NCBI GenBank assembly: GCA_903871875.1
Contig: CAIQIR010000128.1
Location: 1 to 64,000, forward strand
DNA: 64,000 bases
Direction of reading: 5' to 3'
DNA from: an uncultured Schlesneria sp.
Lineage (GTDB): Bacteria; Planctomycetota; Planctomycetia; Planctomycetales; Planctomycetaceae
Within the stretch, counting starts at the first letter, position 1, and every line of letters begins with the position of its first letter. A program made the position numbers and the translations under genes. Below, in pieces: positions 46,019-62,175 of this stretch. The notes under the pieces were generated by a model. It did not search any database, had not been told where the DNA came from, and worked only from the letters and a program-made list of their open reading frames with translations.

Positions 46019-47047
46019 TCAGTGGCTCTCGTTTCGTCCGCGTTTTTCGTCTGCAGACCGCCGAGCCAGTCGCGCGGCCATGACGGAACGCAGCACGCGA
46101 AACGTGACGAAATAGAGTGCCCGCATTGCGAACTGCAGTAATTGCAGCACCGTTCGAGTCGGCCAATTGGCCGACTCGGCGACCACACGACATTCCGCTT
46201 GCAGCACCTGGTTCGCTTCGATGATCGTCGACAATTGCTCATGAGCAATCGATTGACGATATTCTCGAGCCCATTGTTCGACATACTTTGCCGGAAAGAG
46301 TGCACGGTACGCATCCGATCGCATCAACTCGACGGCACGATCGACAATGCGCAGCGCTTTCATCGGATCGGAACGAGTTGATTGCGAGACGCTGCCCGGC
46401 AAAATCGTCCATTCCATCGCGGGATGGGGCCAGTAACACAGGCCATGCCGCAGTCCAATCACCTGGATCGCAAACGTATCGCCCCAGGAACTCAAATCGG
46501 CACGGATCCCACCAAAATCCAGCAATGGCCGTATTCGGAAGATCGTTGCCGCGGAGAGAGAATGCGTCGCCGGTTCGACCATCAGCACGTCGCGCAAATA
46601 CCGCGACGGCTCCAGAAACTCCGCCTGGTTAACTCGAGTCAGTTTGCAGGTCCACAGAGGACGGCCGGATGGATCGACGCTGACAAACTGACCACAAATA
46701 AGACCTGTGGTCGGATACTGCTCGGCCATTCGCATCGCTCCCTCGAAGAAGCCAGGCAGGACGCGATCGTCGGCAGCACCACCATAAAGAAAATCGCTTG
46801 TTGCCGCTTCGATTCCCCGCTGAAACGAGGCATGGATCCCCAGATTTCGTTCGTTCTGAAGGAATCGGATCGATGGATATCGTTCGACCCAACCACGAAT
46901 CACGGACACACTCTCATCCGTCGAACAGTCGTCGATAATGATAAATTCGTCGGCAGGACGGGACTGCGTCAGCACCGCTTCAATCGCGCGCGCGATGAAT
47001 CTTCCATGATTGTAGTTGCAGATAAGGACCGTCAACGTGGAGGGCAT
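46019..47047 (-). CDS. Glycosyltransferase family 2
   Basis: About 342 aa from MPSTLTVLICNYNHGRFI (a start at 47125 is possible). GT-A fold with NYNHG, IIIDDCSTDES and a DxD-like DD in YGGAADDRVLPG. After the catalytic domain comes a helical tail with a hydrophobic stretch (MRALYFVTFRVLRSVM), perhaps membrane-associated. It adds one sugar to a glycan or lipid acceptor. Marks the left end of the polysaccharide region. Divergent from the HAD gene. Confidence 0.87.
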   Translation of the reverse strand: MPSTLTVLICNYNHGRFIARAIEAVLTQSRPADEFIIIDDCSTDESVSVIRGWVERYPSIRFLQNERNLGIHASFQRGIEAATSDFLYGGAADDRVLPGFFEGAMRMAEQYPTTGLICGQFVSVDPSGRPLWTCKLTRVNQAEFLEPSRYLRDVLMVEPATHSLSAATIFRIRPLLDFGGIRADLSSWGDTFAIQVIGLRHGLCYWPHPAMEWTILPGSVSQSTRSDPMKALRIVDRAVELMRSDAYRALFPAKYVEQWAREYRQSIAHEQLSTIIEANQVLQAECRVVAESANWPTRTVLQLLQFAMRALYFVTFRVLRSVMAARLARRSADEKRGRNESH

Positions 47048-47447
47048 CGCGTTATTCGTTACGAGAGCGACAAGGAAATTTGGATTGTTCGCGGGCCGTT
47101 CAGTGGGCGGCCCGTATTGAATCAATGGTCAATCCGCCACAGGACCGTAAACTTGTTGGAGCCAAGTTGGACAGTCGATTACGCGCCGCGTGCTCATTGA
47201 TCAGGACTGTTGAGCCAAGGAGGTTAAGGAAAATCGCGGGCAAACACAATTTGAATAATTACCGAAGACTCGTTGTGATCTTGTGCCGACATTGTTTGTG
47301 CGGGGTATCGGATTGGTCTCGGACTCGATCGACAACACGTGGATCGGTTCGGTGAAATTTCTTTTTCGCGATTGATGATTTCGTAGTGCACGTCATCAGT
47401 GTCATCTGTCATATTTGGGCTTTGGCAAACTGCGACAGGATAGAACT
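47048..47447. other. Divergent intergenic, 400 bp
   Basis: AT-richer than the flanking genes. Should hold the promoters of the GT2 gene and the HAD-APH pair. No hexamer pair I would defend. Confidence 0.35.
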
Positions 47448-48065
47448 ATGCGCATCGGCGTTGATCTGGACAACACACTCGTCTGCTACGACGAAGTTTT
47501 TTGGAAGCTGGCCACAGAACGGGAATGGATCGCCCCCGATGTGCCACGGAGCAAAGAGTTGGTGCGCGACGAATTACGACGGCTTGGTCGCGAATCCGAT
47601 TGGACGCTGTTGCAAGGAGAGGTCTACGGACCACGAATGAACGAGGCGACTCCGTTTCCGAATGCCTGGGAAGCCCTGCGAACGTTTCGCGAGCGAGGTT
47701 GGTCTGTCTTTGTGGTAAGTCATCGGACGAGAGTGCCATTTGCTGGTCCGTCTTTCGACCTGCACGCTGCCGCCCGTGATTGGTTAGCATGGCACGGGTT
47801 CCTTGAAGAACCGAAAACGGGTCTCTGTCAGGGAGGGGTTCATCTCGAGACGACGAAGCAGGAAAAAATGGCCCGAATCGGCTCGTTGAAGCTCAATTGG
47901 TTCATCGATGATTTGCCAGAGTTGTTGTTGGAACCCGATTTTCCTGCCAGTGTCCGAAAAATGTTGTTCGATCCACATTGTCATCGCCCGCCGTTGTCTG
48001 AACCGATTGTGATGGTACATCATTGGCGAGAAGTCTCTGATCTCATTTCTCGCGAGGGCTGTTGA
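47448..48065 (+). CDS. HAD-superfamily hydrolase
   Basis: 205 aa from MRIGVDLDNTLVCYD, with nucleophile D6 and acid D8 of the DxDxT motif. Later motifs: VFVVSHRT (motif II Ser), KQEKMARI (Lys), FIDDLPE (motif IV Asp pair). Likely a small phosphatase acting on a sugar phosphate. ACAGGA before the ATG. Its stop overlaps the start of the APH-like kinase by one base, so the two are translationally coupled. Confidence 0.83.
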   Translation: MRIGVDLDNTLVCYDEVFWKLATEREWIAPDVPRSKELVRDELRRLGRESDWTLLQGEVYGPRMNEATPFPNAWEALRTFRERGWSVFVVSHRTRVPFAGPSFDLHAAARDWLAWHGFLEEPKTGLCQGGVHLETTKQEKMARIGSLKLNWFIDDLPELLLEPDFPASVRKMLFDPHCHRPPLSEPIVMVHHWREVSDLISREGC

Positions 48066-49108
48066 TGAGCACACCCGTGGTTCCTCCCGAGATTTACGCC
48101 GCCGGTGTAAATCTGCTAGCCCAGTCAGGATGGGGGGCTCTGGAATCGATCGTTCCGCTTGCCGGTGGTCGCAACAATCGTGTCTATCGCGTCGTCGGTC
48201 AGTCCGCATCCGGTATTCTGAAGCAGTATCATCGAAGCGAGGGCTCTGGTCGCGACCGATTTGCGGCAGAACTTGCCTGGTATCAGTACTGCCAATCGAC
48301 GAGTGTTGGACAAGTCCCCCGTTTATGGAGTGCCGATCAAGCTGCGAACTGCGCGCTGTTCTCAGAGATTTCCGGCAGAAAACTTCTCCCTGGTGAAGTG
48401 ACCGTCAATCATGTGCGGCAGGCGGCGGAGTTCTTTTCCGACGTGAATCGCCATCGAAATACGACGCTTGCCGCACGACTTCCGCTGGCAGCGGATGCTT
48501 GCCTGTCGATCGCGGATTACTTGAATCAGATTGAACGTCGCATTCAACGATTGCAGGCCGTTCCGGTCATTGATGAACCGACAGTGAAACTGCAAAGTTG
48601 GCTTGTTGGCACGCTGGTCCCACTCTGGTGTGAAGTTCGCGCAACCATCAAACGAGGATCTTCTTCAGATCAACTCGTCGCTATCAGGAGCGTGGAGGAG
48701 CGTTGTGTTTCCCCCTCGGATTTTGGATTTCATAACGCGATCCTGACGCCGACAGGTACGTTGAAGTTTTTGGACTTTGAATATGCCGGTTGGGATGACC
48801 CCGCCAAAATGGTTTGTGATTTCTACTGGCAAGTGGAAATACCCGTTCCCAAAGAGACCCTCCCCTTGATGCTCGAAGCGACAACTTCTCAAGGCGAAGG
48901 TGTCAGCGAACGTGTGAGGCGACTATTTCCCTTGATGGGGATCAAATGGTGTGCAATCGTTTTGAACGAATTCATTGACGACGGCCGCCTCCGGCGGGAA
49001 TTCGCGGGAGGAGTCGCGGTTGTCGATTCGACTCGCAATCGGCAGTTGCAAATTGCGAGTCGAATTTCGAACGATGTCCAAGAGCTGATGCGACGCGAGG
49101 TCTGTTGA
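48065..49108 (+). CDS. Aminoglycoside-phosphotransferase-like kinase
   Basis: 347 aa. APH/choline-kinase fold: an N-terminal lobe (LAGGRNNRVYRVVG), the catalytic loop degenerate as SPSDFGFHNAIL (the usual H-x-D-x-x-x-x-N reduced to S-D-F-G-F-H-N), and the metal-binding Asp in LKFLDFEYAGWDDP. Likely phosphorylates a small polar molecule (sugar or alcohol) in this pathway. Coupled to the HAD gene, so kinase and phosphatase may act on related compounds. Confidence 0.8.
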   Translation: MSTPVVPPEIYAAGVNLLAQSGWGALESIVPLAGGRNNRVYRVVGQSASGILKQYHRSEGSGRDRFAAELAWYQYCQSTSVGQVPRLWSADQAANCALFSEISGRKLLPGEVTVNHVRQAAEFFSDVNRHRNTTLAARLPLAADACLSIADYLNQIERRIQRLQAVPVIDEPTVKLQSWLVGTLVPLWCEVRATIKRGSSSDQLVAIRSVEERCVSPSDFGFHNAILTPTGTLKFLDFEYAGWDDPAKMVCDFYWQVEIPVPKETLPLMLEATTSQGEGVSERVRRLFPLMGIKWCAIVLNEFIDDGRLRREFAGGVAVVDSTRNRQLQIASRISNDVQELMRREVC

Positions 49109-49309: not shown

Positions 49310-50341
49310 ATGACTCAACCTGCCTGGTACGGTGACATCGCCGTCGGACCACCAACAATTGTCGTACTTGGAGCGAATTCCTTTTCCGGTCAGGACTTTG
49401 TCGACCTGTTGCTTGATCGCCCCGAGTATCGTGTGATCGGTGTCAGTAGGTCACCCGAACGATCAGGCCTGTTTTTGAAATACCGCTCGCGGCGTGATTT
49501 GTCGCGATATCAGTACCATGCGCTCGATCTCAATCGAGACATGGATGCGATGCTCGATCTTTTCGATCAGGAACGGCCGGCCGCCATTGTCAATTTTGCT
49601 GCGCAAAGCGAAGTCGCTCCCAGCTGGGAGCATCCGGAACATTGGTTCCAAACCAATACGGTCGCCCTGGCACGGCTCGTGAATCATCTTCGCCGCCGGG
49701 ACTATCTCCGACGATACCTGCATGTCTCGTCACCGGAAGTCTATGGAACGTGCGTGGGTCGGATCACGGAAACGGCCCCGATCAATCCGAGTACTCCGTA
49801 TGCCGCGTCGAAAGGGGCGGCAGACCTGCTGCTGGAAACTTATCGCAAGCAGTTTCAGTTTCCCGTGCTGACGGTTCGCGCGACGAATGTGTACGGTGCC
49901 CGCCAGCAACTGTTCAAAATCATCCCGCGATCCGCGATTTACTTGATGCTGGGCAAGACCGTCGAACTCCACGGCGGTGGTCATGCCGTGAAATCGTATA
50001 TCCACATTCGCGACGTCTCCACCGGTGAATTGGCCATCCTCGAACAAGGACGCGTGGGAGAACTCTATCACTTGTCACCGGACGCAGGAGTTTCGGTGAA
50101 AGAGGTTGTGTTTCAGGTCTGTCAGACATTGGGTGTCGATTTTGCCACCGCAACACGTGCCGTCGACGAGCGTCCTGGGCAGGATGCTGCTTATGTGATC
50201 GATTCTTCGAAAGCCCGGTCGGAACTTGGCTGGCGATCGACGGTCTCGCTTCAAGACGGTCTGGCCGAAGTGGTCAATTGGGTTCGCGACAACCTGGATG
50301 AGATCCGCCGCCAGTCACTGACGTACGACCATCGCCCCTGA
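49310..50341 (+). CDS. NAD-dependent epimerase/dehydratase (RmlB/GMD-like)
   Basis: 343 aa, extended SDR. Nucleotide-binding GANSFSG, FAAQSEV, catalytic SSPEVYG and YAASK. The substrate loop RATNVYGARQQLFKIIP resembles dTDP-glucose or GDP-mannose 4,6-dehydratases. It would start deoxysugar synthesis by forming a 4-keto-6-deoxy intermediate, or epimerise. Plus strand, 201 bp after the APH-like gene and 40 bp before a methyltransferase. Confidence 0.85.
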   Translation: MTQPAWYGDIAVGPPTIVVLGANSFSGQDFVDLLLDRPEYRVIGVSRSPERSGLFLKYRSRRDLSRYQYHALDLNRDMDAMLDLFDQERPAAIVNFAAQSEVAPSWEHPEHWFQTNTVALARLVNHLRRRDYLRRYLHVSSPEVYGTCVGRITETAPINPSTPYAASKGAADLLLETYRKQFQFPVLTVRATNVYGARQQLFKIIPRSAIYLMLGKTVELHGGGHAVKSYIHIRDVSTGELAILEQGRVGELYHLSPDAGVSVKEVVFQVCQTLGVDFATATRAVDERPGQDAAYVIDSSKARSELGWRSTVSLQDGLAEVVNWVRDNLDEIRRQSLTYDHRP

Positions 50342-50381: not shown

Positions 50382-51044
50382 ATGGCCTACGTTGATTTCC
50401 TGTCCACAATTCATCAGCGAACAGCACGAGACTATCGCCAGCGCGTCCTCGATTTTGACAAAGCCGCGTGCGCCGAAGTGGCTGTGCAGTTTGGTCGGGA
50501 TTATTGGGACGGTGAACGACAATTCGGCTACGGTGGCTATCGCTACGATGGTCGCTGGCGAGCTGTGGCCGAGGCGATGTGCAAGCATTACGGATTGCAT
50601 GCGGGATCGCGAGTTCTTGACGTGGGCTGCGGCAAGGCGTTCTTGCTTTACGAGTTTACACAAGTCGTTCCGGGGATTGAGATCGTTGGTCTCGATATTT
50701 CGCCTTACGCAGTGGCCAATGCCAAAGAGGAAGTCCGGCCCTTCCTGGTCACCGGGGCGGCTCAGCAGTTGCCATTTGCCGATCAATCGTTCGATCTCGT
50801 GTTTTCGATAACGACCCTGCATAACCTTTATCTGTTCGACCTCTGGACTGCACTGAAAGAAATTGAGCGTGTCGGTCGAGGTGCCAAGTACATCTGTGTC
50901 GAGGCCTATCGGAACGAGCGAGAAAAGGTCAATCTGATGTATTGGCAACTGACCTGCCGGGCGTTCCACACCCCAGAGGAATGGGAATGGATTTTTCAGC
51001 AAACGGGTTACACCGGTGATCACAGCCTGATTTATTTTGAATGA
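50382..51044 (+). CDS. Class I SAM-dependent methyltransferase
   Basis: 220 aa. Motif I in VLDVGCGKAF, motif II-like GLDISPYAV, and a QQLPFADQSFDLVFS segment. GGAG precedes ATG 50382. A small-molecule or sugar methyltransferase; target not readable. Its TGA stop overlaps a following ATG (51041), the start of an apparently truncated ORF. Confidence 0.85.
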   Translation: MAYVDFLSTIHQRTARDYRQRVLDFDKAACAEVAVQFGRDYWDGERQFGYGGYRYDGRWRAVAEAMCKHYGLHAGSRVLDVGCGKAFLLYEFTQVVPGIEIVGLDISPYAVANAKEEVRPFLVTGAAQQLPFADQSFDLVFSITTLHNLYLFDLWTALKEIERVGRGAKYICVEAYRNEREKVNLMYWQLTCRAFHTPEEWEWIFQQTGYTGDHSLIYFE

Positions 51045-51180
51045 TCGATCTTTCGATCGTCTATCAGCCGTTTCATCCGACGCAATTTTGCGGGCCCGAC
51101 AAAATCTACCGCTGGTCGAATGCCCCGCTATCGTCGTCGGTCGCCATCCACAACAGTGTACGAATTTGGATTCCGTCGAT
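51041..51180 (+). pseudogene. Possible truncated gene start after the methyltransferase
   Basis: An ATG at 51041 overlaps the preceding TGA in the ATGA manner. The first 45 or so codons look protein-like (MIDLSIVYQPFHPTQF, CGPDKIYRWSN) and then run into the antisense of the 3' end of the C-methyltransferase gene at 51180, after which the frame reads as shadow. It suggests a gene cut off by a rearrangement that put the minus-strand block here. No family recognised. Confidence 0.35.
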
Positions 51181-52442
51181 TACGAATTCTTCGCCGTGTA
51201 CTCGCGAAACTCGGGCATCGGCACAACGAATCGACCACCTTGAGCCAGATATTCCGAATGGCGCGGCACGATGCGGTCCGCAAACCTCCAGGCCAAGATC
51301 ACCACCACATCGGGTTTCTTCTCGTAGATCGCTTCGGGCGCGTAAACAGGAATACGATGGCCTGGGGAAAGTGTGCCATGGCGGATGGGGTTATCATCGA
51401 CCAGGAAGTCGATTAGTTCGCCAATACGGAAATGGTGCAACAATGTTGTCACCGTCGCCGAAGCCCCGTAACCGGCGATCGAGAGTTTCTGTTCGCGGCA
51501 CCTCCTTAAGTATTCTGTGGTTTGATCGCGCAGGCGATTGACGCGATTGATGTAGGCTTCGTACGTGGCCGTGCGATAAAGTCCCGCGGCTTCTTCCCGT
51601 GCGATGTACTCGGCGACTCGTGGAGAAATCGGACGCGGTCCACCAAGTTTCTGAGCATAGCCGCGCATCGATCCGCCCTTGCTGGGGACACGTTCGATAT
51701 CGAACAACTGCATGCCATGTCGACGGAGAAATGCGTCCATGGGTTTTGCAGAGTGGTAGCAGAGATGTTCGTGGTAAATGAAGTCGAATACCAGACCTTC
51801 CACCGTATCAAGCAAGTTCGAGACTTCAAACACAAAGGCCCCATCCGGTGCGAGCACAGTACTGATCGCGTCCGCCATTTTTCCCAGGTTGTCGTTATGA
51901 GCGAAGACGTTGTTTGCAGTACAGAGATGCACTGGCCCATGTTGATTGAGAATGATTTCTGCGGTATCAGCGTCCATAAATCGCGCCAGTGTCGGAATTC
52001 CCGCAGCGGTGGCCTGTCTCGCAATGTCCTGCGCAGGATCGACACCCAGGGGAGTTAGTCCGTGACGAGCAAAGTGTCGCAGCAAAGTGCCATCGTTACT
52101 GCCGACGTCGAGCGCGATCGAACCCGCGGGCGGCGCCAACTTCGCCACGACTTCGTCCGCGTAATGTCGGAAGTGAGCGTCCAATCCGGGTGACGAGGCC
52201 GTCGTGTAGCGATAGTTAGAGAACAGCTTTACCGGATCGATCACATCGAAAATCTGGACGTGCCCACAGTTGTGGCAAAGGAACAAATCCAGCGGGAACC
52301 GTTCGTCCGCTTCGTGGGCCAGTTCGGGCGGCAGATAAGCTTCCGCCAAAGCCGATGGCTCCAGTTGGAAGACGCATTCCACATTGGCCGAATCGCAAAG
52401 GCGGCAAGTTGTTCGGCGGGTGTAAAAAGGCGATTTGTTCAT
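51180..52442 (-). CDS. Sugar C-methyltransferase-type protein
   Basis: 420 aa from MNKSPFYTRR, normal for the TylC3/NovU-like family. N-terminal zinc site C13, C16, C56, C59 (CRLCDS, CHNCGH). SAM-binding LDVGSNDGTLL. Catalytic His region FDFIYHEHLCYHS. C-terminal Rossmann-like third domain (LSIAGYGASATVTTLL). Such enzymes C-methylate keto-sugars (often C-3 of dTDP-sugars), giving branched sugars. Upstream in-frame extension to 52835 is antisense to SDR sequence and rejected. Confidence 0.87.
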   Translation of the reverse strand: MNKSPFYTRRTTCRLCDSANVECVFQLEPSALAEAYLPPELAHEADERFPLDLFLCHNCGHVQIFDVIDPVKLFSNYRYTTASSPGLDAHFRHYADEVVAKLAPPAGSIALDVGSNDGTLLRHFARHGLTPLGVDPAQDIARQATAAGIPTLARFMDADTAEIILNQHGPVHLCTANNVFAHNDNLGKMADAISTVLAPDGAFVFEVSNLLDTVEGLVFDFIYHEHLCYHSAKPMDAFLRRHGMQLFDIERVPSKGGSMRGYAQKLGGPRPISPRVAEYIAREEAAGLYRTATYEAYINRVNRLRDQTTEYLRRCREQKLSIAGYGASATVTTLLHHFRIGELIDFLVDDNPIRHGTLSPGHRIPVYAPEAIYEKKPDVVVILAWRFADRIVPRHSEYLAQGGRFVVPMPEFREYTAKNS

Positions 52443-52519: not shown

Positions 52520-53227
52520 TCAGGGATGTTCTGGCCATCGGAGCGAAATGCCTCCGTCGACAATCAATGACTGGCCGGTAATGAACGAAGCATTCTCGCT
52601 CAGCAGGAAAAAAATCACGTTGGCGACTTCTGCAAAAGTCCCCATTCGATTGAGAGGCGATGTCTGCGCCAACCGCTGGGACAGTTCGGGATTCTTTTCG
52701 TAGAAGTCCTGGTTCTCTGGCTTGAGAAATGTGCTGGGGCAGACCGCATTGACGCGAATGCCACGGCTTCCCAATTGACAGGCGTAGTACCGAGCCATCT
52801 GGCAAATCGCAGCTTTGGCGACGTGATAGCCGCAAGGCAATTGCGGGGAAATAAATTCTGCGTTCATCGAAGAGACGAATACGATTGATCCCGGCGCAGC
52901 CTCCCTGAACAGTGGCGTTGCCAGTTCAGTCACTTGCCGTGTTGCGGTGATGCTCGTTTGGATTTCGCCTTCCCAGGCATCTCCCGTTCCGCGAAACCGT
53001 TGAAAAAAGACGAGTCCATCGATCGCGCCCTGATCGCGAACAAGCGATTCCAGCGCGACCTCTGTCGCTTGGAGTTGGGTAATATCACAACAATAGTGCC
53101 GACCAGGATTCTCGTACGACGGGTTTCGGGAAAGTGTGCTGACGACGTACCCGTTCCCTGTCGCAATCTCGGCAAAACACTTGCCCAAGCCACGCGAGCC
53201 ACCGACGAGCACGAGATGCTGGCTCAT
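52520..53227 (-). CDS. Short-chain dehydrogenase/reductase
   Basis: 235 aa classical SDR. Cofactor loop GGSRGLGK, catalytic Ser in VFVSSMNAEF, Tyr and Lys in GYHVAKAA, and a C-terminal TGQSLIVDGG. NAD(P)-dependent oxidation or reduction of a sugar or other alcohol. Only 3 bp separate it from the duplicated WbuC gene upstream, so the two are co-transcribed and probably act on the same intermediate. Confidence 0.9.
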   Translation of the reverse strand: MSQHLVLVGGSRGLGKCFAEIATGNGYVVSTLSRNPSYENPGRHYCCDITQLQATEVALESLVRDQGAIDGLVFFQRFRGTGDAWEGEIQTSITATRQVTELATPLFREAAPGSIVFVSSMNAEFISPQLPCGYHVAKAAICQMARYYACQLGSRGIRVNAVCPSTFLKPENQDFYEKNPELSQRLAQTSPLNRMGTFAEVANVIFFLLSENASFITGQSLIVDGGISLRWPEHP

Positions 53228-53230
53228 ACA

Positions 53231-54289
53231 TCAACCTTGAAGCTTGGTCCGTATTGAATCGACATAGTTCCTCGCGGCAACCGGGTCGCTGCCATCAGGC
53301 GACCACGATGCAAAGACGGTGTCGCTCCGCCGAAACGGTCCGGATGTCGTTTCCTTAACGAGAATCGAATCCGACTCGACGATCAAGCTGTGATAGGTGT
53401 TCGCCGGGACACGGCAGTAAAACGAACGACCTGAACCCAGTGGGCCGAGCGGGACGGCATCGGTTTGATTCCCCTGCTGATCAAAGAACACGTAAGTTCC
53501 AAATCCATCCAGGAAATACAGCGATTCTTCTTTATCAACGTGCAGACTGGGACGGACGTAGGTGCTGTTCGAGAACGCCATCAGCATTTCATGAAGGCGA
53601 TCGTCACCTGATTTGTGAGCGCAAATTCGCAGGCGATCCAGTTTGCGGGTTCGCAACTCGTCCTGAAGGTAGTCGTTCTCCGTCTGGCTGAATGTGACGA
53701 CCTGATCGGTCGCCGTCAGTACCAGGTCATTGATTTTTTCCAGGCCGATCAATCCCTGACGCCCCTTCCAAGAACGGATCTGCTCGTTCAAAGAACCGAT
53801 GTACGCCGCAATGGCGATCGGGTCTGATTCCGGCGGTGCCCAGTCGGCGTAGACTGTCTCGGCCGGATTAAAAGGGCCGGGTGTCCCCTCGAACAGAATT
53901 GTCTCGGGCGAACGCATAATGATGGTGTGATATACGCCTTCTGGAACTCGACAGTAATAGGCTTTTCCGGAAGCCACATCGCCCATGCAGACGACCTCGA
54001 GCAACTTTCCGTCGTCGTCGAAGAACAAGAAATCGGCTTCGCCACGAATGACAAAAATGGACTCGTCCTTGCCGATATGCTTATTAGCACGGACGTAGGT
54101 TTGATTGCTGTAGATGACAAACATCTCGTGCAACAATTCCTGCACACTGCGGTGTGTACAGATCCTCGACCGCCGCCGCGCACTCAGATTGATGGCCTGT
54201 CCAAGGAAGTCGAGATCGCCCTGTCCGAGAAAAACAATGGGATCGGTCGCATCGTAGGCCTCTGCGGTCTTCATCTTCAGTGTGGTCAT
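53231..54289 (-). CDS. Tandem-duplicated WbuC-type cupin
   Basis: 352 aa containing two copies of a WbuC-like cupin, roughly 42-150 and 220-330. Copy 1: RICTH (42-46), LLHEM, HIGKDES, YHT. Copy 2: RICAH (221-225), RLHEM, HVDKEES, YHS. Both keep the His/Glu metal-site pattern and the closing GPF-x-x-x-x-TV-x-A-x-W. Single-copy WbuC proteins (about 150 aa) occur in O-antigen clusters with no known activity; a fused pair is unusual. Start at 54289 begins right after the 5' leader; the longer form to 54334 is unlikely. Confidence 0.8.
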   Translation of the reverse strand: MTTLKMKTAEAYDATDPIVFLGQGDLDFLGQAINLSARRRSRICTHRSVQELLHEMFVIYSNQTYVRANKHIGKDESIFVIRGEADFLFFDDDGKLLEVVCMGDVASGKAYYCRVPEGVYHTIIMRSPETILFEGTPGPFNPAETVYADWAPPESDPIAIAAYIGSLNEQIRSWKGRQGLIGLEKINDLVLTATDQVVTFSQTENDYLQDELRTRKLDRLRICAHKSGDDRLHEMLMAFSNSTYVRPSLHVDKEESLYFLDGFGTYVFFDQQGNQTDAVPLGPLGSGRSFYCRVPANTYHSLIVESDSILVKETTSGPFRRSDTVFASWSPDGSDPVAARNYVDSIRTKLQG

Positions 54290-54437: not shown

Positions 54438-55115
54438 TCATTTTTTTTTGTCGCAGCAGAGAGCAATGAGATACGAGGCCATGGGAGAAAATCCCGTGTG
54501 AACAATCTCGTCGTTCATGGAAAAAATAAACACATTGTGGAAGTGTCGTTTCATCAACCCTTTCAGACCGGCTGCGGTCTTACAATTCACATGTCCCGCC
54601 TTGCTGCGTGGGGTGGCATAGATCTGCGATTCAAGCGAAGGCATTCCGATGATCGCCACTCCGTGCGGAACCAGGGAATCGACGGCGTTGGACATGAAAC
54701 GGTCTTCGTCTTCCGGACGGATATGCTCGAGGACGTCGAGTGAGTAGAGACCTTCGAAACCGCCTTCGACCGGCCCGCTCAGCATGTCATGGACCTTGCA
54801 TTCGAACGGCCACTGGGGATCCATGCGATTTTTCACGTCTTCGATGAACACGGGATCAAAATCGACCGCCATGACGTACGGCACTTCCTGTCGCACGATC
54901 CGCGTACAAAATGCATCCCCGCAACCCACTTCGAGAACCCGGTTCAGGCCACTCAACATTTTCGCCGCGAATTTGTAACGCGAAAAGGTGAAAGCCAACC
55001 GCTTTGGATCGTCGTGCCAAGAGACGTTTGTCGCCAGTCCCAAGGAGGTCAGGCCCTGTCGGTCTCGCAACTCAAGCAGACTCTGATATTGCGGTTCACG
55101 TGTCTCGGAGGTCAT
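54438..55115 (-). CDS. Class I SAM-dependent methyltransferase
   Basis: 225 aa. Motif I VLEVGCGDAFC, then AVDFDPVFIEDV, DMLSGP, and YSLDVLEHI. It resembles methyltransferases of polysaccharide clusters. Same strand as its neighbours: 148 bp before the WbuC gene and 52 bp after the ADH gene. Target unknown; O-methylation of a sugar hydroxyl is a fair guess. Confidence 0.83.
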   Translation of the reverse strand: MTSETREPQYQSLLELRDRQGLTSLGLATNVSWHDDPKRLAFTFSRYKFAAKMLSGLNRVLEVGCGDAFCTRIVRQEVPYVMAVDFDPVFIEDVKNRMDPQWPFECKVHDMLSGPVEGGFEGLYSLDVLEHIRPEDEDRFMSNAVDSLVPHGVAIIGMPSLESQIYATPRSKAGHVNCKTAAGLKGLMKRHFHNVFIFSMNDEIVHTGFSPMASYLIALCCDKKK

Positions 55116-55167: not shown

Positions 55168-56232
55168 TCAGTTTGCTGCGGCAGGTTCAGGGGAAATCGA
55201 CGCCAGGTTGATGAGGGGCCGTGGCGTGATGCCCGATTCCAGATCATCGAGCGCCGCATTGACTTGCACAAGCGAATATTCACGCGTCAGCAGGTGTTGA
55301 ACGGGGAGCTTACCTGCTGTGATTAATCGGCAATAACGAGGATAGTCGCGATCAGGAGCGTTGTCACCACCCCATGTTCCCAGAATCCGTTTCCCCTGGT
55401 TCAGCTGTCGTGGATCGAGATTCCAGAGTGCTCCAAAATGAGCATTTCCGACGATTGCCGTTGTCCCTCCCTGGGCGCGCACAACGCTCAAAGCCTGATC
55501 CATGACTGCGGGCACCCCGGTTGCTTCAACGGCGAAATCGAGACCCGCTGGAAAGGTACTGCGGATTGTTGAGACAGGATCCTGATGACGAATATCGATG
55601 GTTTGTGTCGCTCCTAACGATTGTGCCAGTTCCAGCCGCGAGGTATGCCGGTCAATCGCAATGACGGGATGACAACCGGCCAGGACGGCTGCCGTTACCG
55701 CGCATAAACCAACTCCGCCGACCCCGAAGACCGCCAGACTTTGACCCGGCGATGGCTGCAACGTGTTGAATACGACTCCGGCACCGGTTGGAACGGCACA
55801 ACCAATCAAGGCTGCGACACGGCGGTCGAAATCGGCAGGGATCACCGTCAGTCGGTTTTCGCTGACGACCGAGTGACGACTGAACGTCGTCACGGCGCCC
55901 GAATTCACCGTTCGTCCATTCCAGGAATACGTTGTCCCTGGAACATCGCCACCCAGTCCTTTGATCCAGGAAAGAATGACGGCATCGCCGGGGCGCACCT
56001 TGGTGACACCCGGTCCCACTTCCAGCACGACACCGGAGCCTTCATGTCCCAGGCAATGCGGCAGAAACTTATCTTCGCCGCGATAGCCGCGGGCTTCTAA
56101 CAACTGTGTGTGGCAGACACCGCTGAACGCCACTTCCACCAGCACCTGCCCCGGCTTCAGCACAGGAACCTCGATCTCGGCAAACACCAAGGGGCGTCCC
56201 AATTCTACCAGGATTGCGGCCAGCGTTTTCAT
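55168..56232 (-). CDS. Zinc-type alcohol dehydrogenase lacking structural zinc cysteines
   Basis: 354 aa from MKTLAAILVE (AAGGAA upstream), medium-chain dehydrogenase. Catalytic zinc ligands C40 (GVCHTQ), H63/E64 (GHEG) and C145 (IGCAVPTG). NAD-binding FGVGGVGLC. The lobe that normally holds the four-Cys structural zinc (residues 89-120, WIKGLGGDVPGTTYSWN) contains no Cys. Otherwise closest in feel to class III enzymes. It would oxidise or reduce an alcohol in the sugar pathway. First gene of the leftward block down to 51180. Confidence 0.88.
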   Translation of the reverse strand: MKTLAAILVELGRPLVFAEIEVPVLKPGQVLVEVAFSGVCHTQLLEARGYRGEDKFLPHCLGHEGSGVVLEVGPGVTKVRPGDAVILSWIKGLGGDVPGTTYSWNGRTVNSGAVTTFSRHSVVSENRLTVIPADFDRRVAALIGCAVPTGAGVVFNTLQPSPGQSLAVFGVGGVGLCAVTAAVLAGCHPVIAIDRHTSRLELAQSLGATQTIDIRHQDPVSTIRSTFPAGLDFAVEATGVPAVMDQALSVVRAQGGTTAIVGNAHFGALWNLDPRQLNQGKRILGTWGGDNAPDRDYPRYCRLITAGKLPVQHLLTREYSLVQVNAALDDLESGITPRPLINLASISPEPAAAN

Positions 56233-57632: not shown

Positions 57633-58559
57633 TCACAGAATGGCCCACGCCGCTTGAATCTCTTTGGTGAATTGTTCGGCGTATAGTCCGCAGGCGATAC
57701 GAGCATGTTCTTGCTCGCCCGAATGATGCAGGATCTTGTCCGGCGTCCCGAACCGCAGCAACTTGGCACCCGTGGTGACGTGGTCAGCTCGCCACTCTGC
57801 CACTGCTCCGCCCAGACCACCAATCCGCGAATGCTCTTCAATTGTGGCTACGATTTTACTTCCGTTGAACACTCGAGTGAGCAACGCCTCATCCAGTGGT
57901 TTGACTGTATGGACGCTGTAAACGGCCGTCGAAATTCCGGTGGTGTCGAGTTGTTTTGCCGTTTCCAACGCGTCAGGCAAGAGCGTGCCGGTACACAGCA
58001 ACGCGACTTCGGAACCGGTCCGCATCGAGTACGCTTGACCAATCGAGAGATCCGGTCGCGACGCATGAACGAGTGGTTCACCCTTCTTGCCGATCCGCAT
58101 ATACGAAGGGCCCGGCAATTCCAACGCCGCGCCCAACAGTGCCCGCAGTTCCCAGGCATCGGCCGGACAAAGCAGTGACATGTTTGGCAACGATCGCAAC
58201 ACGGCCAGATCTTCACAGGAGTGATGCGTTGGTCCATTTGCGGCGTAGCCCAGTCCCGCCCCCACACCCACAATCAACACGGGCAGGTTGAGGTAGCACA
58301 AATCGACGCGAATCTGCTCGAACGCGCGGTACACAGCGAATGAGGCGATGGTATAAGCGACAGGACGCATGCCGCCCAAGGCCAGGCCCGCAGCGATGCC
58401 AATCATATCCGCCTCTGCCACACCGACATTGTAAAAGCGATCGGGATGCCGATCACGAAAATCATTGAACAGGCGGTTACCGATGTCGCCACTTAATAAC
58501 ACGATCCGAGGATCACGATCGGCAAGAGCGGTCAGTTCGTCCGCGAAGGCATTTCTCAT
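57633..58559 (-). CDS. Transketolase-like, C-terminal subunit
   Basis: 308 aa. Corresponds to the pyrimidine-binding and C-terminal domains of transketolase / DXP synthase, with the conserved Glu that activates thiamine diphosphate in VGVAEADMIG. Its ATG overlaps the stop of the N-terminal subunit gene (ATGA at 58556-58559), so the two make one heteromeric enzyme transferring two-carbon (ketol) units. The location in a polysaccharide cluster suggests a dedicated role in sugar building, not central metabolism. Confidence 0.9.
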   Translation of the reverse strand: MRNAFADELTALADRDPRIVLLSGDIGNRLFNDFRDRHPDRFYNVGVAEADMIGIAAGLALGGMRPVAYTIASFAVYRAFEQIRVDLCYLNLPVLIVGVGAGLGYAANGPTHHSCEDLAVLRSLPNMSLLCPADAWELRALLGAALELPGPSYMRIGKKGEPLVHASRPDLSIGQAYSMRTGSEVALLCTGTLLPDALETAKQLDTTGISTAVYSVHTVKPLDEALLTRVFNGSKIVATIEEHSRIGGLGGAVAEWRADHVTTGAKLLRFGTPDKILHHSGEQEHARIACGLYAEQFTKEIQAAWAIL

Positions 58560-59374
58560 GGCAGCTGGAGCTCCACGAAGGCTTTGGCAAGTTCCTGGGC
58601 GGACGGAATTCGATAGTGCCAGTTATTATCGTCTTCCATGAATGACACTCCCTTGCCTTTGACGGTATGCGCGATCAGCACGGTGGGGCGACCGTCGGGA
58701 TCAGGCTCCGCTTGAATCCATTCCGCCAGGGTCGCGATATCGTGTCCATCGACTTCCACTGCGCGCCAACCAAAAGCGGCCCATTTTTCTCTGAGCGGAG
58801 CGAGTGATGTCACCTCGTCGCTGCGGCCGGTAGCCTGCCACTTGTTGTAATCGATCATGACCGTCAGACGATTCAATCGCTGTGCCGGAGCGAACAAAGC
58901 CCCTTCCCACACCGAACCTTCATTGCATTCGCCGTCACTCATCAACACACAAATGCGATTGTGATCGCCGCGAATGCGCGACGCCAGCGCGAGGCCGATG
59001 CCAACCGGCAATCCGTGTCCCAGTGAGCCGGTGGCCACTTCGATCCCCGGCGTACCTGGACTTGGATGCTCGCCCAATGCGCTCCCTGGTTCCGCGTAGT
59101 CATCAAGCCAGGAATCGGGAAAGTATCCCTTCATGGCCAACGCGGCGTACAGCGTCGTCGCTGCATGACCTTTGCTCAGGATGAAGCGATCGCGTGCTGG
59201 ATCCGCCGCCGACGACGGGTCCAGCTTAAGTTCACCCCAATAGGCCGCCACAACCATGTCCACACAAGACAGGGACGAACCCAGATGCGGCGTGCCCGCG
59301 CGAAATGAAAGTTCGAGCACCCGGCCCCGGATCCGTCGGGCAATCGACCGCAGTTCGTCGATGTTTGCAGTCAC
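58556..59374 (-). CDS. Transketolase-like, N-terminal subunit
   Basis: 272 aa. Diphosphate-binding domain with RFILSKGHAA, the TPP motif in MSDGECNEGSVWEGA followed about 25 residues on by IDYNKWQATG, and GSLGHGLPVG. Splitting transketolase into two genes is common in bacteria. Start overlaps the stop of the upstream epimerase gene (59371-59374), so three genes are coupled in a row. Confidence 0.9.
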   Translation of the reverse strand: MTANIDELRSIARRIRGRVLELSFRAGTPHLGSSLSCVDMVVAAYWGELKLDPSSAADPARDRFILSKGHAATTLYAALAMKGYFPDSWLDDYAEPGSALGEHPSPGTPGIEVATGSLGHGLPVGIGLALASRIRGDHNRICVLMSDGECNEGSVWEGALFAPAQRLNRLTVMIDYNKWQATGRSDEVTSLAPLREKWAAFGWRAVEVDGHDIATLAEWIQAEPDPDGRPTVLIAHTVKGKGVSFMEDDNNWHYRIPSAQELAKAFVELQLP

Positions 59375-60384
59375 TGGAGGTGAACCTCCTGCATGCGTTT
59401 GATATTGAAGTAGGTGGATTTGGACAACGAATCCGGCAGCTTGCCCGTACGGAACGCCGTCACGAGGCCCCGCACCGCGTCTTCGATCGATCGCCGTGGC
59501 CGATAGCCCAGCACACGCGTAATCTTTTCGGACGAGATGTGGTACGAACGCAAATCATCGGAAGGCGTCGTCACAATCTCGATGTCATTGTAGCCCAACT
59601 CCTGTCCAACAACCCGTTTGACAATCTCGGCCAGTGCCGAGACGCTGTGATTCTCGTAGCCGGCATTCAACACCTGTCCGGCGATTCGTTCGAGTGGTTC
59701 CTGCAAGACCTGTAAATAAAGGTCGGCCATATCTTCCACGTGAAAATTCGGTCGCAGCTGCGATCCACCAAATACCGTGATCCGACGGTTGTTGACCGCA
59801 TGATTGGTCAAAATATTCACGGTCAAATCCAACCGTTGCCGCGGTGAATATCCACACAACGTTGCCGGACGTAAAACCAGCGTGGTGAATTCGGACGATT
59901 GTTGCTCAAGCAGAATTGTTTCACATTCGGCTTTGAAGCGGCTGTAGTCCGTCAGCGGACGCAGAGGATGATCTTCTGTAACGTCGGGTGAATCACTGAT
60001 GCCGTAAACACTCGACGACGAAGCGTACACGAAACGCTGCACCTCCGCTTCACGACTCAGCCGGACCAGCGGCGGAAATGCGTCGAGGTTGATTGTGCGA
60101 CCCAGCACGGGATTCAGTTCGAAACTCGGATCATTGCTGATACAGGCCAGATGGATCACTGAATCGCATCCCGCCACGGCCTGGGCCACGAGCGCGGGAT
60201 CTCGCAAATCGCCGACAAATTCCTCCAGCATTGGTGATGGACGCACCTGATCGAAAACCTGCTTGCCGTACAGATACAAATCCAGCACACGAACGCGAAA
60301 GCCAGCCGCCAGCAATTTCGGCACGAGAACGGCGCCTGCATAACCTGCGCCACCTGTCACCAGCACGGTGCGAATCGAATCCAT
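59371..60384 (-). CDS. NAD-dependent sugar epimerase/dehydratase
   Basis: 337 aa extended SDR: TGGAGYAGAVL, HLACISNDPS, catalytic SSSSVYG and YSRFK, then LRPATLCGYSPR. Acts on a nucleotide sugar (epimerisation or 4-keto formation). Coupled by ATGA overlap to the split transketolase, so its product is likely that enzyme's substrate or the reverse. Different enough from the epimerase at 49310 to be a separate step. Confidence 0.87.
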   Translation of the reverse strand: MDSIRTVLVTGGAGYAGAVLVPKLLAAGFRVRVLDLYLYGKQVFDQVRPSPMLEEFVGDLRDPALVAQAVAGCDSVIHLACISNDPSFELNPVLGRTINLDAFPPLVRLSREAEVQRFVYASSSSVYGISDSPDVTEDHPLRPLTDYSRFKAECETILLEQQSSEFTTLVLRPATLCGYSPRQRLDLTVNILTNHAVNNRRITVFGGSQLRPNFHVEDMADLYLQVLQEPLERIAGQVLNAGYENHSVSALAEIVKRVVGQELGYNDIEIVTTPSDDLRSYHISSEKITRVLGYRPRRSIEDAVRGLVTAFRTGKLPDSLSKSTYFNIKRMQEVHLQ

Positions 60385-60521: not shown

Positions 60522-62066
60522 CTATTTCAAGAGATGTTCAATATGTCGATATAGCGGCACTCGATCGATGGATGCCTTGTTTCCCGCGGTCGCGACGGCT
60601 TGAGCCCCCACAACATTGCCGATAAAACCCAAGACCTCCATCGGGGCATCTTGGACGGCACACAATGATGTAATTGCCAGAAACGCATCTCCGGCTCCAA
60701 TTCGATCAACGACTTGCGAGGCGAAGGCCGGAACATCCAGATGGCCAGCTCCAGACCGATAAACCGAACAACCCTTGTTGCCGCGAGTCACAATCACTCG
60801 GGGGCAGTTCAATCGATTCGCAACACGTTCGATCATCGGCCGCAAGTTGCCGCGGCGATCGCGGGAATCCAATCGCATCTCATGTTCTGAGATGGACACG
60901 TAATCGGCTCGGGGATAGTTCGAGATGACGTGGTATCCCAGATTCGCCGCGTTCGATTGGGTGTTGACGACCAGAAAGCGACTTTCCCGACTCAGCAATT
61001 CGATCGTCTCGCGCGTCAGAAAGCCGTGGCCGAAATCCGCCACAATCACGACATCGAATTCTGCCAGACGTCCGGCCAGGGCACTGGTCCATTGCTGGCT
61101 TTCGTCGGCCGTCGGGATCGCATCGTTCAGTTCGTTCACTTCCAGCAACTTGCTGAAAAAATACTGTTCGACGAATCGCCTTTTCACAATGGTCGGAGAC
61201 TTCTCGCGGAACAGGAATCGCGGTTCGACGTTGTCCTTCAATCGGGAACGAATGAAAGCCTCTTCCGAATTCACTTCACCCAAAATGGAATGCAACACGA
61301 CGTGATCGCAAAAGCCCGCCACGTGGTTGGCAATGGCTGCTGCACCACCCGCGAAGCGTTCGCTGGACAATGCCTTCACGACCAACGTCGGTTCCTTCGA
61401 CGACTTGCCAATTGCTTCCACATATTGGTCATCGTTAATGATGGTCTCGCCCACGACGAGCACCTTGAGCGAGCGAGATTTCTCCAGAAATTTCAGGATT
61501 TCGTCCGTTTGATAACGGTTTGAGAAGTCGGTCAGGTAATCGCTGACATCCTGAGAAAAAACCGACAGATGGCGATTCACCAGATGCGAAGCGCTGTAAG
61601 TCACATCGTCTGTGAATTCGAGTCGTCCGCCGACCGATCGGACGGCGTTTTCTTCCAGGGCAATGGCACCTGTCAAATCTTTGCCGCCACGGAATTCGGA
61701 ACCCTTTACGAAGATGTCTGGTTGCAATGTGACAATGGTTTCGATCGCCATCGGCCAGCGATTCACCGCGACAAAATCGACGATTTCCAGCGAGGCGATC
61801 GCTTCCGCACGCAGATCTTCCGGAAAGACCGGACGATGCGGGCCTTTGTTGACGAAACGATCCGGAGTCACGGTCACGACCAGCACATCGCCCAGTTCTC
61901 GGGCGGCGGCGAAATGCCGAATATGTCCGATATGCATGGGATCGAACACGCCGTGACAATGGACGACCGTCTGTCCACGGGCTTTGCACGCGGAAATTTC
62001 GCTGGCAACCGCCTCGATGGACAGAATCTTACGACGCGGCGTCTGGTCATTGGCAGCGGATGTCAT
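60522..62066 (-). CDS. Cytidylyltransferase-PfkB kinase fusion, reversed HldE order
   Basis: 514 aa from MTSAANDQTP. Residues about 30-165 are a nucleotidyltransferase with the HxGH motif (FDPMHIGHIRHF, 45-48) and VTPDRFVNKGP. From about 205 to the end is a PfkB/ribokinase-like kinase with GGAAAIANHVAG, DFGHGFLT and the catalytic GAGDAF (457-462). E. coli HldE makes ADP-heptose with kinase first and nucleotidyltransferase second; here the order is inverted. It likely phosphorylates a sugar at C-1 and activates it as a nucleotide derivative. Confidence 0.85.
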   Translation of the reverse strand: MTSAANDQTPRRKILSIEAVASEISACKARGQTVVHCHGVFDPMHIGHIRHFAAARELGDVLVVTVTPDRFVNKGPHRPVFPEDLRAEAIASLEIVDFVAVNRWPMAIETIVTLQPDIFVKGSEFRGGKDLTGAIALEENAVRSVGGRLEFTDDVTYSASHLVNRHLSVFSQDVSDYLTDFSNRYQTDEILKFLEKSRSLKVLVVGETIINDDQYVEAIGKSSKEPTLVVKALSSERFAGGAAAIANHVAGFCDHVVLHSILGEVNSEEAFIRSRLKDNVEPRFLFREKSPTIVKRRFVEQYFFSKLLEVNELNDAIPTADESQQWTSALAGRLAEFDVVIVADFGHGFLTRETIELLSRESRFLVVNTQSNAANLGYHVISNYPRADYVSISEHEMRLDSRDRRGNLRPMIERVANRLNCPRVIVTRGNKGCSVYRSGAGHLDVPAFASQVVDRIGAGDAFLAITSLCAVQDAPMEVLGFIGNVVGAQAVATAGNKASIDRVPLYRHIEHLLK

Positions 62067-62175
62067 GAGCACCACGATTCAAATCAGCGTAAAGCATAGG
62101 CGTTGATTCAACGAAACGATTGGTGAACGCACGATCGTATTCACCGCTTTCTCTGCACGCATACGATAATTCTGG

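Follow-up and report, generated by a model that had tools for sequence, protein, structure and literature searches.

The window analysed here, 64,000 nucleotides of an uncultured Schlesneria sp. (contig CAIQIR010000128.1), carries among its sugar-related genes one whose product contains two WbuC domains (Table 1). The first-pass annotation had placed a 352-residue protein at 53231–54289. A gene does lie there, but it is on the minus strand and its open frame begins further upstream, giving 367 residues; the shorter form corresponds to an internal ATG at 54289. A plus-strand reading of the same interval was ruled out, as stops break the frame. The NCBIfam model TIGR04366 (WbuC) matches the protein twice, at 115.2 and 98.8 bits, with the two copies covering model positions 3–132 and 4–132. 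Both domain scores exceed the membership cut-off of 42 bits, and by profile the protein is a WbuC member. Two domains in one chain, as had been claimed, are therefore borne out; one per chain is usual, though no formal criterion demands it. The motifs quoted from the first inspection were all located in both halves (R57-I-C-T-H61 and R236-I-C-A-H240; H69-E-M and H248-E-M; K89-D-E-S and K268-E-E-S; Tyr-H136 and Tyr-H315), and the SDR gene described as 3 bp away lies directly downstream.

Table 1. The tandem WbuC gene and its neighbours in the window.
Feature	Coordinates	Strand	Remarks
GT2 glycosyltransferase	46019..47125	-	relatives in six congeners bear N-terminal WbuC, absent here
216-residue protein, HAD-like by eye	47415..48065	+	no Pfam or NCBIfam match; conserved in cassette
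APH-fold kinase	48062..49108	+	33% to Jezberella
EPI1, GDP-mannose 4,6-dehydratase-like	49310..50341	+	45% to Jezberella
MT220 methyltransferase	50382..51044	+	cassette marker
CMT1, Methyltransf_13/14 C-methyltransferase	51180..52424	-	43% to Jezberella
SDR	52520..53227	-	GGSRGLG and YHVAK motifs; starts 3 bp downstream of tandem WbuC stop, same strand
Tandem WbuC protein, 367 residues	53231..54334	-	open frame from ATG 54334; TIGR04366 matches two stretches
Copy B, residues 205-364	53243..53722	-	H240, H248, S263 (not His), H265, E270, H315
Copy A, residues 26-185	53780..54259	-	H61, H69, N84 (not His), H86, E91, H136
MT225 methyltransferase	54438..55115	-	upstream of tandem gene; 50% to Jezberella
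Zinc-type alcohol dehydrogenase (ADH)	55168..56232	-	cassette counterparts exist
Transketolase C-terminal half (split gene)	57633..58559	-	50% to Jezberella
Transketolase N-terminal half (split gene)	58556..59374	-	55% to Jezberella
EPI2, NAD-dependent epimerase/dehydratase	59371..60384	-	cassette counterparts exist
HldE-like nucleotidyltransferase + PfkB kinase	60522..62075	-	

Ten genes of the window have counterparts, at 26–57% identity, beside a second tandem WbuC gene in Jezberella montanilacus: EPI1, both transketolase halves, the protein at 47415, the APH-fold kinase, MT220, the SDR, CMT1, MT225 and the tandem WbuC gene itself. The SDR counterpart is distant (26%), lies away from the Jezberella tandem gene and is not clearly the same SDR; counterparts of ADH, EPI2 and the HldE-like protein are found farther along. 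With MT220 as marker (E 1e-25), matches were obtained in 37 of 398 genomes of Jezberella's phylum, Jezberella included, and in 20 of 392 genomes of the window's phylum, its own included. We examined the flanks of 40 of the 41 non-Jezberella places in the former and of the 19 non-window places in the latter. The split transketolase halves, the kinase, the HldE-like protein and a dehydratase stand beside MT220 in many of these flanks, not in all. In the HldE-like protein of the window the nucleotidyltransferase part (28–168) precedes the PfkB kinase part (199–500), an order reversed from that of the HldE model NF008454, in which the nucleotidyltransferase occupies positions 314–452 of 475.

From the dehydratases, split transketolase, kinase/nucleotidyltransferase and methyltransferases we infer that the cassette would encode a conserved route to an uncommon nucleotide-activated sugar. 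In the available part of PMC12247030, split transketolases are proposed to put a two-carbon branch on keto sugars. The miharamycin and amipurimycin clusters treated there likewise combine a split-gene transketolase with sugar genes, but they are natural-product clusters, a setting unlike that of the present cassette, and according to the same part of that source their transketolases are uncharacterized in vitro. The literature matches listed named no sugar product fitting the cassette, and the search found no paper containing both 'bradyrhizose' and 'transketolase'.

The Jezberella tandem gene (locus L024, 7926–8987) was the sole relative returned by a scan of genome contigs, which detects close relatives only. 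Its copies stand in the reverse order, B-A, whereas those of the window are A-B. The two tandem proteins are 33% identical in the colinear match; window copy A, however, is 49% identical to the C-terminal Jezberella copy over 164 residues, and window copy B 51% identical to the N-terminal one over 114 residues, as against 35–38% for A–B pairs. A tree of 32 domains grouped the A copies (support 98/87), the B copies (96/87) and all four tandem domains (100/98), and a tree of 68 domains was concordant (99/87, 95/87 and 86/99, respectively). JEZ_B is a long branch in these trees, and the B pairing is weaker than the A pairing. AU tests, on groups that were chosen after the pairwise scores had been seen, rejected WIN_A with WIN_B (p 0.0257), JEZ_A with JEZ_B (p 0.0212), WIN_A with JEZ_B (p 0.0196) and WIN_B with JEZ_A (p 0.0196). 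Because tree and pairwise identities alike pair each copy with its namesake in the other organism, we read the history as a single duplication that gave two classes, which were later arranged in opposite orders. On these comparisons the classes had split by the time the two known tandem genes diverged. The opposite orders reflect either two fusions of neighbouring genes or a permutation of a tandem gene.

A search for tandem WbuC proteins and their neighbours, as the first-pass annotation had proposed, thus yielded the Jezberella protein, but none besides in the genomes, plasmids and phages sampled. No tandem WbuC other than the window and Jezberella proteins was found with query P0001 in samples of 392 and 158 genomes, with query P0003 in samples of 300 and 161, or with TIGR04366 in 170 genomes; these samples overlap and cover a small part of the species available. 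One match, in G611, spans query positions 127–340 across a stop, and a single WbuC domain was retained from that locus. Separate A and B genes side by side were not found either, no annotated flank having two WbuC genes. Viral contigs gave one WbuC locus only, L152, with a single WbuC; this IMG/VR contig, binned as viral, has a transketolase half, MT220, CMT2b and a WbuC 83% identical to the L102 copy, and may be misbinned.

We then compared the presumed metal sites. The first histidine of cupin motif 1, given as G(X)5HXH(X)3,4E(X)6G in the available part of PMC3765361, was placed by that motif and by alignment to the HWH of MncA. At this position of the HxH pair, copy A has Asn84 and copy B Ser263, and Jezberella shows the same distribution, Asn in its A copy and Ser in its B copy. 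The 68 WbuC-like domains compared are 84 hits minus duplicates and short ones, of which L013–L015 score below the WbuC cut-off. The first histidine is kept in 63 of them; the five exceptions are the four tandem domains and a Gln variant (G440), the latter a single-domain protein on a 3-kb contig. The remaining positions are nearly invariant: the second histidine (H86 of copy A) is present in 68/68, the motif-1 glutamate (E91) in 67/68, the motif-2 histidine (H136) in 67/68 and E149 in 68/68. The WbuC proteins of E. coli and Parabacteroides, outside the 68, likewise keep HxH. By alignment, each tandem copy retains three of the four usual predicted ligands and lacks one canonical one. The HxH, E, H set, nearly invariant in WbuC and implied by the name 'metalloprotein' although no formal criterion requires it, is therefore incomplete in the tandem protein. 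Both metal-site sets had earlier been described as complete, and loss of metal residues from one copy had been named as evidence to the contrary; what we find is a partial loss that affects both copies, one ligand each, with the other three present in each. The class-specific Asn and Ser in both organisms, together with a swapped order in which the classes are kept, suggest that each class has a role of its own.

A full-length AlphaFold model of the tandem protein, built from two sequences, reached a pLDDT of 42.8, too low to be of use on an intramolecular dimer; copy A alone, with five sequences, reached 75.2 with a cupin-like set of strands. Foldseek and VIA-align comparisons of the copy A model returned many cupins with nearly equal scores, some of them seed storage proteins, and the fold matches also comprised MncA/OxdC, archaeal cupin phosphoglucose isomerase, CapF and KdgF. 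The CapF cupin (2zkl) aligned with Z 10.9 and rmsd 3.1 over 108 residues, tied with many unrelated cupins. The model supports a predicted cupin fold and no function. Sequence searches of the PDB with P0001 and with one single-domain WbuC gave nothing at E 1. A 13-sequence profile gave weak cupin matches only, with MncA (2vqa) at E 0.0028 at motif 1 and CapF absent from its matches.

Among known families, TIGR04366 shares with the tandem protein a polysaccharide gene setting. The tandem copies fall in a separate branch, with RC.H...HEM where most other WbuC proteins have NN.H...RL, and the protein differs from the family in having two copies per chain, both without the first motif-1 histidine. 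The MncA/oxalate decarboxylase bicupins also have two cupin domains per chain; they, however, keep HxH where the tandem protein has N84/S263, and their gene setting is unrelated. In CapF, as described in the available part of PMC5393024, a zinc cupin epimerizes a keto-sugar nucleotide for subsequent NADPH-dependent reduction by an SDR, all in one chain. A cupin fold and, presumably, a cupin and an SDR in one sugar-nucleotide route would be common to CapF and the window. CapF, however, joins them in one chain, where the window has separate genes 3 bp apart, and its single cupin has an essential zinc according to that same part, where the window chain has two cupins each lacking one ligand. Neither the literature matches listed nor the available part of PMC6712391 named an activity for WbuC, and those matches, drawn mostly from open-access literature, contained no description of a tandem WbuC.

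The reading we prefer is that the tandem WbuC, by the logic of CapF, is an isomerase or epimerase pair that converts a keto-sugar nucleotide which an SDR goes on to reduce; we put its probability at a little under 40%. It starts from what was observed: there are two domains, the two tandem genes share a duplication and a cassette and have their copies in opposite order, and each class has lost the first histidine in its own way. On this analogy, the duplicated and diverged WbuC, a 'bicupin', would work in the unusual nucleotide-activated sugar pathway as a built-in A/B pair. The pair would shift or invert the centre next to the keto group, and the adjacent SDR would then reduce the ketone, a division of work like that between the cupin half and the SDR half of CapF. 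The A/B pairing, the substrate, the isomerase chemistry and the SDR as partner would all be additions of this reading, which we favour because the SDR, the dehydratases and the fold are all in keeping with it. The pairing of an isomerase with a reductase, as hinted in the first-pass annotation, agrees with CapF (PMC5393024, as far as available) and with the presence of a CapF gene in the E. coli gene run that ends in WbuC, but stays conditional. In the window an SDR does lie next to the tandem gene, and WbuC followed by SDR recurs in G514 and G1409; the Jezberella SDR, by contrast, is distant and non-adjacent. This loose link and the missing first histidine weigh against an isomerase pair, as do the unspecific fold matches, the ties to C-methyltransferase-like (CMT-like) proteins, the existence of only two tandem genes and the long JEZ_B branch. 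A CapF-like metal site in particular is in doubt because each copy lacks one canonical ligand.

There are two serious rivals. In the first, WbuC would have no catalytic role: it would bind a sugar nucleotide or glycan and pass the modified sugar on to its methyltransferase or glycosyltransferase, and the tandem would be a two-site binder. Six congeners (G137, G142, G144, G145, G146 and G148, one of them recognized by Pfam and NCBIfam; loci L002–L005, L007 and L008) encode a GT2 with WbuC fused to its N-terminus, and the GT2 part, in the five measured, is 64–68% identical to the GT2 of the window. The E. coli WbuC gene comes immediately after one for a glycosyltransferase, and it ends a gene run containing the CapF gene, which we take to be fnlB (FnlB). 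A block fnlA-fnlB-fnlC-wbuB-wbuC is named in the available part of PMC6712391. A binder would also be consistent with both tandem copies having lost the first histidine while keeping the fold. The GT2-fused copies, however, keep all four motif residues, and the near invariance of H86, E91, H136 and E149 has no obvious need in a mere binder. We consider this reading unlikely.

In the second rival, which we hold to be rather unlikely, WbuC would act with a Methyltransf_13/14 protein, making or holding a keto-sugar enol(ate), and the tandem would replace a single WbuC plus CMT2. Among 60 MT220 loci (the 59 flanks and Jezberella, with the window left out), a CMT-like gene of any type was found in eight of the 13 with WbuC and in none of the 47 without it (BLAST E 1e-15, half-length coverage; CMT1, CMT2 and CMT2b pooled, the CMT2b query being taken from L132, itself a scored locus). 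Fisher's p for this association is 5e-7, or 3.4e-4 with the near-identical L131–L135 counted once and 1.1e-4 with three f46 rows also merged. Absences in this comparison are soft, as several flanks stop at contig ends; the G514 WbuC lies about 18 kb from MT220, outside the flank, and L175 has a weak CMT match (E 2.5e-9) below the cut. CMT2 immediately precedes WbuC in G514, G797, G806, G915 and G1409, and where G514 has the order MT225-CMT2-WbuC-SDR-CMT1, the window has MT225-[WbuC.WbuC]-SDR-CMT1. Among 20 hand-picked genomes, four of them chosen because CMT2 had already been seen there, nine have CMT2 (G514, the query's own, and eight others at 36–39%), each with one cassette-type WbuC; in three of the congeners a further WbuC, from the other branch, is also present. 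The window and Jezberella genomes have no CMT2, only CMT1-type matches at 22–25%. For the cassette WbuCs, the tie to C-methyltransferase-like proteins is no looser than that to an SDR. On the other side, only two tandem genomes are available, G137 has a GT2-fused WbuC and no CMT2, E. coli WbuC has no CMT-like neighbour, and five of the 13 WbuC loci have no CMT within the flank. CMT2 itself seems to lack the SAM motif and is possibly a former C-methyltransferase with another job. Its glycine motif seems, by eye, to be gone in L069, L071, L130, L190, L224, L225 and L231 (for example, GLTYKDD instead); the loss was read by eye because an automated pattern was too strict, missing visible motifs in L072 and L131–L135, and the reading left out L070 and G148, with G144 partly inspected. 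An example of CMT2 is L071 10375–11610, and in most cases the gene stands directly before WbuC.

A bolder combination, which we regard as improbable, makes the tandem an obligate A/B enzyme with H/E/H centres, Asn or Ser taking the place of the first histidine, that replaces a single WbuC and a former methyltransferase without SAM motif. If it were true, WbuC chemistry would be the enolization of a keto-sugar nucleotide, and the A-B/B-A swap would mean that pairing matters and order does not. Least probable of all is plain duplication and fusion in which the copies have no separate tasks and the chain behaves as a WbuC homodimer. Gene duplication did give rise to bicupins such as OxdC, according to the available part of PMC3765361, but the class-specific Asn and Ser and the retention of the classes through the swap argue against so simple an account.

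WbuC genes turn up repeatedly in clusters for surface polysaccharides and on maps of resistance plasmids. The natural fusion of two copies in swapped order suggests subunits that may act jointly, and with an SDR, methyltransferase-like proteins and a glycosyltransferase fusion as repeated neighbours, the candidate reaction is narrowed to a testable keto-sugar step. Parts of the cassette occur in other settings. On plasmid pDCAR1 of Solidesulfovibrio carbinolicus (L151), an MT220 relative (51%) is found with split transketolases and a gene resembling aminoglycoside phosphotransferases, next to radical SAM genes; the 24.6 kb tabulated contain no WbuC. In Jezberella's phylum, five loci closely related to one another (L131–L135) have WbuC immediately after MT220.
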